A program made the position numbers and the translations under genes. Below the pieces are notes generated by a model. It saw only the letters and a list, made by a program, of their open reading frames with translations. It searched no databases and was not told where the DNA came from. A stretch of DNA of 46,782 nt from Acidobacteriota bacterium (GTDB taxonomy: Bacteria > Acidobacteriota > Terriglobia > Terriglobales > Acidobacteriaceae): the NCBI GenBank assembly GCA_021790995.1, contig JAJYFA010000012.1, forward strand, positions 1-46,782. Direction: 5' to 3'. Positions 39,199 to 41,949 of this stretch are shown one piece after another. The stretch's first letter is position 1. Each line of letters begins with the position of its first letter.

Positions 39199-41949
39199 TT
39201 AAATCTTTTTCAGATTCGCGAACTTTTCCATCAGCTTTTTGATGCCGTGGCGGGCGAAGAGAACAGTGAGCTTGGCGTCTTCGCCTTCGCCTTCGCGCGT
39301 GAGCACCGTGCCTTCGCCGTACTTCGTGTGCATCACGCGCTGGCCCTTCTTCAGGCTCGTAGCGCCGCTCGGCGCGGAAATCTCCATCGTCGACCGCGCC
39401 AACGCACCGGGGCGGCCGCCCGATTTCCACCCCACGGACGAAGACCTGCCCGTGGGGACCACGGATTTGCCGCCGAAGAAACGTGCGATATTGTCCAGCG
39501 AATTCGGCTGTGCTTGCGGCGCCGCTGCGCTTTGACCTTTTGGAGTAGCGCCTGAGCGGGACGAACCTTTGGCCGCAAAGCTGCGCGGAGTCTCCTGGCT
39601 CTCGTCCTCGTAATTGAAGTGTCCGCCGTCAAATTCGCCATGCCGGTGCCGGCGGCCTGCTCCGTAGCCGGGCGAGTAGGCCGGAGTGGACCACGCCGGA
39701 CTTCGGCCACCGAGATTTTCGACAAGCTGGGAAGGAACCTCTTCGAGAAAGCGCGAAGGAATACTCATCTCCGGCATATCGTTGCCGTAGCGGCGGCGAT
39801 AGTGCGCGCGCGTCAGGATGAGCGTGTTCATGGCGCGTGTCATGCCGACGTAGCAGAGACGCCGCTCCTCTTCGAGTTCCTCGGGATTGTTCAGCGTGCG
39901 CGAGTGCGGGAACAGGCCCTCCTCAAGTCCGGAGAGAAAGACCAGTGGGAACTCCAGTCCCTTGGCGGCGTGGAGCGTCATGAGCGTGACGCGCGCGTTG
40001 GGATCGAACTGATCGGTGGCGGAGGCGAGCGCCGCGTGGTCCAGAAATTCGGCCAGTGTCTCGCCGCGCGCCTCGGCGTCGTGCGCGGCGTTGGCCAGTT
40101 CCTTCAGGTTCTCGATGCGGCTGATGGCCTCCGGTGTGCCCTCGGTTTCGAGCGCCTTGATGTAGCCGCTGCGATCGATGAGGAAACGGATCAGCTCTGG
40201 CAGCGTGGCGGAGTCGCCGGCAGCTCGGAAGGCGGGTCTTTCATCCGGGTTTTCTGCTTCGTCTTTCGCTACCGTGTTTCCCTCAGGGGCTGAAGCCCCG
40301 GTAATTTGCAGGCTTCTTTCGGCACGACTGAAGTCGTGCCCTTTCGAAGCGTCAAATGCGAATCCTGTCTGCGCATTTTCTTGCGCCCTTGTTCCCTTGG
40401 GATCTTGTTCACTGTCTTCCGCGCCGAAGCCGAAACTCGTATCCGCATCGTCTGCCGCGGCTTCCGCTACGTCCGCTGCGAGTTTGCCGGCAAAATCCGG
40501 ATCCATCATGGCCTGCGCATCGAGGATCAGCCGGCGAAAGCTGTCGAGCGCCATTGAAGCGCGCGTGGGAATCAGCCGGTTCTCAATCGCCGCTGCTGCC
40601 GCATCCCACGTTGAAACGCCGGTTTCGAGGGCCAGCCGCTCCACGGTTTCGAGCGTCGTCTTGCCGATGCCGCGCGCCGGTGTGTTGACGACGCGCCCGA
40701 ACGCCATCGAATCATGCGGATTCCGTACGAGGCGCAGGTAGGCGAGCAGATCCTTGATCTCGGCGCGCTCGTAGAAGCTGAAACCGCCTACCATCGTGTA
40801 GCTGATGTTGTAGCGGCGCAATGCCTCTTCCACCAGGCGGGACTGCGCGTTGGTGCGATACAGCACAGCACAGTGCTGTCCGCCTGTGGCGTCAGAGCCG
40901 GGCGAGTTGCGCAGAAATGTCTGAATCTTGTCGGCGATGAACAGCGCCTCGTTTTCGCCATCGGGCGCTTCATAGTAGCCGATTGGCGAACCGCCCTGGC
41001 GCTGGGTCCAGAGTTTCTTGCCCTTCCGTCGCAGGTTGTTCGCCACCACCGCGCCGGCAGCCTCCAGAATCACCTGCGTCGAGCGGTAGTTCTGCTCCAG
41101 ACGAATGATCTTCGCGTCGAGAAAATCCTTCTCGAACTCGAGGATGTTGCGAATATCGGCGCCGCGCCACGAATAGATGCTCTGGTCCTCATCTCCCACC
41201 GCGCAGACGTTCTTGCCTTCGCTGGCCAGCAGTTTCATCATCTCGTACTGTGGGCGGTTCGTGTCCTGGTACTCGTCGACGAGCAGGTAGCGCCAGCGGC
41301 GCTGGTAGCGGTTGCGCACCTCGCCGGAAGCCTTGAGCACGCGCACGGCTTCGAGCAGCAGATCGTCAAAGTCCATGGCGTTGCTCTTGCGCAACTCGTT
41401 CTGGTAGGCCTTGAAGATGTGCGCCACGCGCTCGCTCGTGGGGTCCTTCGAGCTGAGGAAATACTCCTGCGGGTCGACCATATGGTTCTTTGCCCACGAG
41501 ATGCGGCTCAGCACGTTACGCGGTGTGAGCTGCTTCGAGTCGAGCCCCATGCGCTTCATGATCTGCTTCACGATGCTCTGCTGGTCGTTTTCGTCGAAGA
41601 TCGTGAAGTCGCGCGTCAGCCCCTGGCCCGCGATTTTCAGCACCTCGACGTCGCGGCGCAGGATGCGCACACAGAGCGAATGGAAGGTCGAGATCAGCGG
41701 CTTCGCCAGAGACGCGTGGCCCAGCAACTGATCCACGCGCTCGGCCATTTCGCCGGCGGCCTTGTTGGTGAAGGTGACGGCCAGAATCGCGTCAGGTGCT
41801 ACGTTTTTCTCCCGGATCAGCCAGGCGATCCGGTGAGTGATCACGCGCGTTTTGCCCGATCCTGCACCAGCCAGGATCAGCAGCGGGCCATCCGTGGCCT
41901 CGACAGCGGCGCGTTGTTCGGGATTGAGATGGGCGAGAAGCGAGTGCAA
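39199..41949 (-). CDS. pcrA: UvrD/PcrA/Rep superfamily-1 DNA helicase
   Basis: The 916-residue 3'-5' helicase shows NPEQRAAVEA (Q motif), GAGSGKT (Walker A), AVTFTNKAAGEM, DEYQDTNRPQYEM (Walker B), GDEDQSIYSWRGA, LEQNYRST, and LMTLHAAKGLEFP and YVGMTRA, all superfamily-1 motifs. It unwinds DNA in repair and replication-fork rescue. Typical members have about 720-780 residues; the extra length includes an acidic 2B-region insert with a repeat-encoded piece (about 530-560, KGHDFSRAE ... ASAPEG) and a long low-complexity segment before the C-terminal KKGQRVMHTKYGEGTVL domain, itself usual in PcrA. Start is TTG 41949; no ATG is available upstream. Confidence 0.93.
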   Translation of the reverse strand: MHSLLAHLNPEQRAAVEATDGPLLILAGAGSGKTRVITHRIAWLIREKNVAPDAILAVTFTNKAAGEMAERVDQLLGHASLAKPLISTFHSLCVRILRRDVEVLKIAGQGLTRDFTIFDENDQQSIVKQIMKRMGLDSKQLTPRNVLSRISWAKNHMVDPQEYFLSSKDPTSERVAHIFKAYQNELRKSNAMDFDDLLLEAVRVLKASGEVRNRYQRRWRYLLVDEYQDTNRPQYEMMKLLASEGKNVCAVGDEDQSIYSWRGADIRNILEFEKDFLDAKIIRLEQNYRSTQVILEAAGAVVANNLRRKGKKLWTQRQGGSPIGYYEAPDGENEALFIADKIQTFLRNSPGSDATGGQHCAVLYRTNAQSRLVEEALRRYNISYTMVGGFSFYERAEIKDLLAYLRLVRNPHDSMAFGRVVNTPARGIGKTTLETVERLALETGVSTWDAAAAAIENRLIPTRASMALDSFRRLILDAQAMMDPDFAGKLAADVAEAAADDADTSFGFGAEDSEQDPKGTRAQENAQTGFAFDASKGHDFSRAERSLQITGASAPEGNTVAKDEAENPDERPAFRAAGDSATLPELIRFLIDRSGYIKALETEGTPEAISRIENLKELANAAHDAEARGETLAEFLDHAALASATDQFDPNARVTLMTLHAAKGLEFPLVFLSGLEEGLFPHSRTLNNPEELEEERRLCYVGMTRAMNTLILTRAHYRRRYGNDMPEMSIPSRFLEEVPSQLVENLGGRSPAWSTPAYSPGYGAGRRHRHGEFDGGHFNYEDESQETPRSFAAKGSSRSGATPKGQSAAAPQAQPNSLDNIARFFGGKSVVPTGRSSSVGWKSGGRPGALARSTMEISAPSGATSLKKGQRVMHTKYGEGTVLTREGEGEDAKLTVLFARHGIKKLMEKFANLKKI
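40286..40340. repeat. Paired REP-like palindromes inserted in frame within pcrA
   Basis: GGGGCTGAAGCCCC (40286-40299) and GGCACGACTGAAGTCGTGCC (40321-40340) are perfect palindromes with the same CTGAAG centre, 21 bases apart. The whole repeat probably spans about 40264-40350. Read on the minus strand it is open in the helicase frame. Confidence 0.85.

Follow-up and report, generated by a model that had tools for sequence, protein, structure and literature searches.

A two-hairpin REP-type repeat, probably a tolerated insertion, translated in frame within a helicase gene of an Acidobacteriaceae genome

The helicase gene and its repeat

The window analysed here is a stretch of 46,782 nucleotides from an Acidobacteriota bacterium of the family Acidobacteriaceae (GenBank assembly GCA_021790995.1, contig JAJYFA010000012.1, positions 1 to 46,782 of the forward strand). 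It contains a PcrA/UvrD helicase gene whose reading frame includes a repeat composed of two hairpins (Table 1). This segment is very probably a copy of a non-autonomous, two-hairpin element of the repetitive extragenic palindromic (REP) type that belongs to one acidobacterial family and was inserted in frame and tolerated.

The 916-aa frame matched the Pfam UvrD-helicase model (2.2e-95) and TIGR01073 pcrA (6.6e-255, 847.9 bits, under the model cut-off of 911.2), and showed the UvrD N- and C-terminal domains and the tudor domain that mark a PcrA/UvrD helicase. It matched only itself in the genome at E ≤1e-150. Its named database relatives were metagenome-assembled genomes of Terracidiphilus, the nearest with 94% identity.

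In minus-strand sense, the unit at 40279-40350 reads GCTTCGAAAG-GGCACGACTTCAGTCGTGCC-(21 nt)-GGGGCTTCAGCCCC-TGAGGGA, and its translation from K536 to G557 contains no stop. The first-pass annotation had described two perfect palindromes of 14 and 20 nt, lying 21 nt apart and translated without a stop in the helicase frame. The lengths, spacing and translation were confirmed, but each repeat is a hairpin with perfect arms (5 and 8 bp, respectively) around a 4-nt TGAA loop, and differs at 2 positions from its own reverse complement. The paired pattern occurred once in the window and in none of 100 dinucleotide shuffles. Folded as single-stranded DNA, a 76-nt segment gave -17.2 kcal/mol against a shuffle mean of -10.4 (z -2.97; 0/200 as good). 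A nine-row profile of in-gene copies (A1) matched the helicase at 40273-40353 (6.1e-16), the helicase copy being itself one of the nine rows.

Alignment to a PcrA of known structure (1pjr) set helicase residues 473-581 against a gap that falls between its residues 466 and 478, which we take to be part of the 2B subdomain, in agreement with the earlier placement of the insert in the variable 2B region. The repeat makes up one part of this linker, which is long overall in these bacteria. An AlphaFold model of the helicase had a coil at residues 502-582 and was discarded for its mean predicted local distance difference test score of 47 (45 sequences, all close). Five homologues (P0018, P0032, P0089, P0100 and P0113) carried in the same linker a domain-like insert of about 200 residues instead (CEHCKKRRIRNN...CIHEFLGD).

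Table 1. Helicase gene and parts of the repeat, numbered from the first base of the window
Feature	Position	Strand	Details and basis
PcrA/UvrD helicase gene, host of the repeat	39199..41949	-	916 aa, TTG start; open reading frame, Pfam, NCBIfam
Whole repeat unit (GCTTCGAAAG tag, hairpin 1, spacer, hairpin 2, TGAGGGA tag)	40279..40350	-	Alignment with genome copies
Hairpin 1, GGCACGACTGAAGTCGTGCC	40321..40340	-	8-bp arms, TTCA loop in coding sense
Spacer between hairpins, 21 nt	40300..40320	-	Length that keeps both hairpins within the open sense frame
Hairpin 2, GGGGCTGAAGCCCC	40286..40299	-	5-bp arms, TTCA loop in coding sense
22 codons from the repeat, KGHDFSRAERSLQITGASAPEG (helicase residues 536-557)	40279..40344	-	Translation; profile match

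Copies in the genome, genus and phylum

The repeat was found elsewhere in the genome, as had been supposed, with most copies outside long sense frames. Hairpin 1 with ≤3 mismatches matched the 4.15-Mb genome at 39 places in forward and 40 in reverse orientation, near-symmetric sites matching on both strands, compared to 0 + 0 for the reversed control pattern. A single DNA-pattern rule called 47 oriented copies in this genome, the helicase copy included and a few symmetric sites entering twice, once per orientation, and 59 in genome G030 of the genus, where one of 58 initially listed sites (C78, at a contig edge) was left out and a looser rule brought the set to 59. The aligned copies share a common unit of TTTGAAAG, hairpin 1, a spacer of about 20 nt, hairpin 2 and TGAGGGA. 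Tail-to-tail pairs resembling the inverted pairs of bacterial interspersed mosaic elements were present at three loci (L006, L010, L027), and the unit is a composite of two opposed tagged hairpins.

The copies are mostly extragenic: 5 of 48 in the own genome (the 47 plus a UvrC copy that failed the tag rule) and 5 of 59 in G030 lay in named genes, a tally which short or unnamed genes may have escaped and which leaves aside, in G030, a transposase tail (L279) and the doubtful L312. The tagged hairpin with ≤1 mismatch was present in 35 of 40 genus genomes, with a maximum of 103 per genome and 0 for the control. Of 396 genomes sampled from the phylum, whose kinship groups were counted by hand, eight had it, namely 4/5 of the own genus (own included), 4/39 of other genera of the family and 0/352 of the others.

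In-frame copies in other core genes

Five copies in the own genome lie in frame within genes: pcrA, hemD (L007), alaS (L015), uvrC (L121, diverged) and argS (L123). All five share the frame LKGHDFSRA...APEG, a 21-nt spacer and a long open frame on both sides. Profile A1 matched 80/80 genus genomes at E ≤1, with some weak matches (best 0.03 in G027). The host sample comprised all 57 matches outside the own genome that lay in an open frame of ≥250 aa without a stop among the score-ranked matches listed, and is not a census. The host open reading frames (ORFs) were scanned with NCBIfam in 56 of the 57 cases (L218 was scanned with Pfam instead, with no hit), which named 46, the other 10 having no match at 1e-12.

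Among the named hosts, 19 function in DNA replication, repair or segregation (six uvrC, one UvrC-like, two recN, addA, dnaE2, three RarA-like, three YoaA/DinG and two scpA), six are tRNA ligases (three alaS, two leuS and metG), seven modify tRNA or rRNA (mnmE, mnmG, two tsaD, miaA, rlmB/trmH and rsmB) and 14 fall in other classes. As background, 30 random ORFs (≥250 aa) were taken from 129 in the same loci; 16 were named, and the 14 unnamed may partly be spurious frames. Two of the 16 (Nfo, TatD) belonged to the host classes, or four when Der and release factor 2 were counted. By ORF, 32/46 hosts compared with 2/16 background gave a Fisher value of 8.7e-5, or 0.0024 against 4/16; by distinct family, 16/30 gave 0.0069 and 0.061, respectively. 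The excess of repair, tRNA and RNA-modification genes is clear for ORFs and weaker for families. Classes were assigned by hand, many names in hosts and background alike come from matches below the curated cut-off, and several hosts are orthologues of one another (six uvrC, three alaS), whose insertions may go back to a single event.

In nine of the 46 hosts (L166, L170, L186, L188, L196, L202, L208, L210 and L216) the family match lay to one side of the element, and these may be terminal extensions or cases with the element upstream of the true start. Without them 28/37 hosts were in the classes (Fisher 2.5e-5 against 2/16; 7.8e-4 against 4/16). Two or more copies lay close together in single frames of RecN (L190), AlaS (L201), ScpA (L188) and HemD (L355), as if a tolerant site gathered further copies.

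Insert-free orthologues

HemD provided the cleanest empty-site case. Its loop, parsed in 25 of 30 loci, was 27 aa long in 20 and 36 aa in one, and held the element in four (57, 57, 62 and 78 aa). The UvrC loop, likewise parsed in 25 of 30 genus loci, was 8 aa long in 11 and carried a plain copy in four; the others were long, with other or decayed repeat pieces. As a separate observation, UvrC and PcrA linkers of the genus (e.g. L165, L193, L265, L038) contain pieces of several repeat families together.

Most of the 120 PcrA homologues listed lacked the segment, and eight of them had a clear or decayed copy. Five shared one site, namely P0001 (the cluster of the window's own protein), P0002, P0003, P0006 and P0010, and three carried a copy at other sites (P0040, P0079, P0094). 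In addition, P0103 had a sister element and P0097 a doubtful remnant. The copies of P0002 and P0003 are decaying by missense changes. In 30 helicase loci of the genus (26 parsed) the element was present in the own locus only. It was in none of the 59 loci that could be parsed among 80 helicase loci from named genomes, one of the 59 (L082) having a sister element read KGTGFSPY...GALAPEG. The PcrA insertion thus seems older than the divergence of a few close lineages, and appears to be decaying in some.

Like Rickettsia palindromic elements, the repeat is present in frame in unrelated genes and absent from their orthologues. Copies in other coding frames and orthologues without the segment had been named in the first-pass annotation as the tests of its proposal, and both were found; neither a conserved protein segment over divergent DNA in distant genera nor a lack of other genome copies was seen.

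Spacer, frame and strand

Spacers and strands were compared in the copies found by DNA pattern alone (47 own and 59 from G030). A 21-nt spacer was present in 7/8 sense copies within named genes (21 nt is likewise the spacer of the own UvrC copy, which the tag rule had excluded) and in 16 of the 66 called spacers outside long sense frames, where 29 were 20 nt, 15 were 22 nt and 28 copies were uncalled (7/8 vs 16/66, Fisher 0.00086). All 12 copies in long sense frames comprised nine with 21 nt, one with 20, one with 22 and one without a called spacer. A 21-nt spacer leaves one sense frame open through both hairpins, and the excess of this length in genes is expected because selection for an intact gene should leave such a frame.

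Among the matches listed for the sense profile A1 and an antisense profile (A3), stop-free frames of ≥250 aa were found at 61 sense places (57 and four own) and nine antisense places, a comparison unused as a test since A1 was built from in-gene copies and both counts cover the listed matches only. Two of the antisense loci (L405, L408) are seemingly not the gene, and two (L398, L406) had no match to the text pattern. A YbeY-like frame (L379:880-1905, named by eye) has a long C-terminal tail of antisense repeat peptide in FKAESWPFKAEPRT units.

A candidate transposase

The REP-associated tyrosine transposase (RAYT) that the first-pass annotation had advised looking for was found in the genome, scoring 112 bits with NF047646 (cut-off 80). 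It has an HFH motif and YIHLNP and lies between oppositely oriented copies of the same repeat. Close RAYT orthologues (≥72% identity) were present in 16 of 80 genus genomes. Inverted copies of hairpin 1 bracket 15 of these 16, upstream and at the 3' end, at near-constant distances and with the 3' copy overlapping the frame end; the 16th starts 78 bases from a contig end. Distant RAYT loci were bracketed on both sides in 3 of 14 cases (L335, L342, L343). The median copy number was 21 in 10 genomes with a close RAYT vs 3.5 in 30 without (p 0.0086; 0.016 without the own genome). In the own genome (L031:1246-1866, minus strand) and in G030 (L279:2584-3318), the flanking repeat itself supplies the coding sequence for the end of the RAYT frame. 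Dispersal of the element is most likely driven by this cognate RAYT, a putative HUH/Y1 single-strand transposase whose role as mover we infer.

Origin and retention of the in-frame copies

The observed repeat family, in-frame insertions, empty sites in orthologues, frame and spacer signature and bracketed RAYT suggest the following course. The cognate RAYT, its own gene bracketed by inverted copies, would disperse the element, and one copy would have inserted into the PcrA linker in the 2B region. There it would have survived through its 21-nt spacer and the single sense frame open through both hairpins, in a linker that probably tolerates extra residues, with the insert presumably disordered. 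Near-neutral tolerance would be the reason for its retention. In-frame insertion of this kind has recurred in other core genes.

Several results weigh against this course or parts of it. The helicase itself has no base-exact empty site, its insert-free relatives P0004 and P0005 being represented by proteins only. The role of the RAYT as mover is read from sequence, and transposition itself is a proposal; moreover, three genomes without a close RAYT are rich in copies (G003 with 46, G039 with 41 and G036 with 36), and therefore other or lost transposases have to be allowed. The spacer signature is imperfect: a sense copy in a penicillin amidase (L304) has a 22-nt spacer although the Pfam match (79-860) spans the insert, and a 21-nt copy in PBP2 (L208) sits in the C-terminal tail beyond the family match. 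In the pattern sets with the own UvrC copy, sense copies in genes outnumbered antisense copies by 9 vs 2 (p 0.033), or by 9 vs 3 (p 0.073) when a doubtful SPOR-domain ORF was counted. Stop codons alone seem insufficient to explain this excess, which speaks against full indifference to the insert. Finally, pure random tolerance does not predict the excess of repair and translation genes.

These last results bear on a second explanation, in which the 22-residue peptide is a domesticated module kept for use in repair and tRNA-linked enzymes, as a flexible linker, an interaction motif or a means of low-level tuning of expression via mRNA hairpins, so that its retention would be adaptive. The concentration of named hosts in the repair, aminoacyl-tRNA synthetase and RNA-modification classes (32/46 vs 2/16) and the over-representation of the sense frame in genes are in its favour, as are the same gene classes reported for other REPs in the available sections of Di Nocera et al. 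2013 (PMC3733652). However, most homologues examined have no insertion, and copies decay by missense changes, as in P0002 and P0003. A second palindromic repeat (GGTGCCCCAGGTCTCG..TGAGACCTGGGA) yields RVPQVSPLRPG in PcrA (e.g. L038) and GAPGLDSETWE in UvrC (e.g. L262); the idea that these are unrelated peptides was rejected, as they are one repeat in two frames. In addition, the penicillin amidase of G030 (L304:1526-5101) contains an inverted pair, its sense and antisense copies sharing one open frame. Because the second repeat is read in two frames and the amidase holds both orientations, it appears to be the DNA rather than the peptide that spreads, which argues for the translated peptide as a tolerated by-product. 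Domestication is considered unlikely.

Dispersal by the transposase of a miniature inverted-repeat transposable element (MITE) or insertion sequence acting on terminal inverted repeats, and not by the RAYT, is very improbable for the in-gene copies. In the own genome the unit also occurs within a larger MITE-like element, about 165 bp long as judged by eye, that is bounded by the 18-bp terminal inverted repeats GAGCCACTTGCAAAATTC and GAATTTTGCAAGTGGCTC. This composite includes at least eight own copies: L004, L008, L009, L012, L014 and L019, with the 4-bp flanking duplications TTCC, CACT, CAAT, GGAT, CCAT and CCTT, respectively, and the less exact L013 and L016. However, the terminal repeats were missing (≥7/18 mismatches) near all five own in-gene copies, and a terminal repeat with ≤3 mismatches was nearby in 0/57 of the sampled in-frame copies, and MITE-type dispersal of the in-gene copies was rejected on this ground.

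That the segment is ancestral, lineage-specific helicase sequence merely resembling the repeat is hardly credible and was rejected: the site shared by P0002, P0003, P0006 and P0010 with the own cluster does place the insertion before their split, but the genome has 47 oriented copies, three homologues carry the motif at other sites, and most of those listed are without it.

Comparison with described repeats

The classic case of mobile palindromes that sit in the reading frames of numerous unrelated genes, whose products tolerate them, is that of the Rickettsia palindromic elements (Ogata, Claverie). By this description the present element is alike, a mobile palindromic repeat in frame in unrelated genes. 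It differs in that its host belongs to another phylum and that a bracketed RAYT suggests its mover; its host is also free-living, in contrast to the hosts of the Rickettsia elements.

The available sections of PMC3733652 describe GTAG/CGTC-tagged REPs lying wholly inside ORFs, grouped ones encoding 20-30 aa, often in genes for DNA synthesis and repair (UvrD/REP helicase, uvrA, dnaE2, recB) and partly in tRNA synthetase genes. The present repeat resembles these, as described there, in being a short hairpin repeat within ORFs with repair and tRNA synthetase hosts. In contrast, it is a two-hairpin composite from an acidobacterial family, and its aligned copies have no GTAG or CGTC tetranucleotide at the hairpin foot, the tags being TTTGAAAG and TGAGGGA.

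REPtrons and REPINs, in the portion of PMC6006769 available, consist of a RAYT gene bracketed by inverted high-copy hairpin repeats. The bracketed RAYT and the high-copy hairpin repeat found here agree with that account, while two unlike hairpins, conserved outer tags and a RAYT frame end encoded by the repeat (L031, L279) set the present system apart. Acidobacterial RAYT-like genes were placed in PMC3733652 among the TIRYTs flanked by inverted repeats. The same source describes TIRtrons in Koribacter, Terriglobus and Granulicella, with partly palindromic flanking inverted repeats and one Koribacter set in a repeated family. By description these too have a tyrosine transposase with flanking inverted repeats; unlike in the present case, no coding insertions are described in the section of PMC3733652 on TIRtrons.

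A repeat that encodes protein had been regarded at first pass as an unusual origin of new protein sequence. Here that assessment has to be revised, as translated REP-type repeats are already published (the intragenic REPs in the available text of PMC3733652, and the Rickettsia palindromic elements). No report of translated copies of an acidobacterial repeat was recognised in searches of an open-access collection, subscription papers being mostly outside it. The present element is an acidobacterial, untagged addition to the published intragenic REPs, unusually rich and well resolved.

Implications

The main novelty is that the bias towards genes for repair and tRNA functions recurs. One tentative and rather doubtful suggestion is that the retention of translated REPs is non-random, with the same classes (excision repair, recombination, tRNA ligases and tRNA modification) recurring in unrelated phyla. 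This could arise by exposure of such genes to RAYT insertion, for example through single-stranded DNA in transcription or repair, or by inserts that adjust the amount of genome-maintenance enzymes or their linkers. If true, REPs would repeatedly give rise to new protein sequence that is under selection.

In the 80 genomes of this one genus, translation of mobile repeats is common enough to be quantified. The rate at which selfish DNA becomes protein sequence, the proteins that tolerate it and the generality of the published repair and tRNA bias are measurable here. That this bias is seen again in a different phylum, for a repeat without the GTAG/CGTC tag, makes a long-known oddity amenable to testing.

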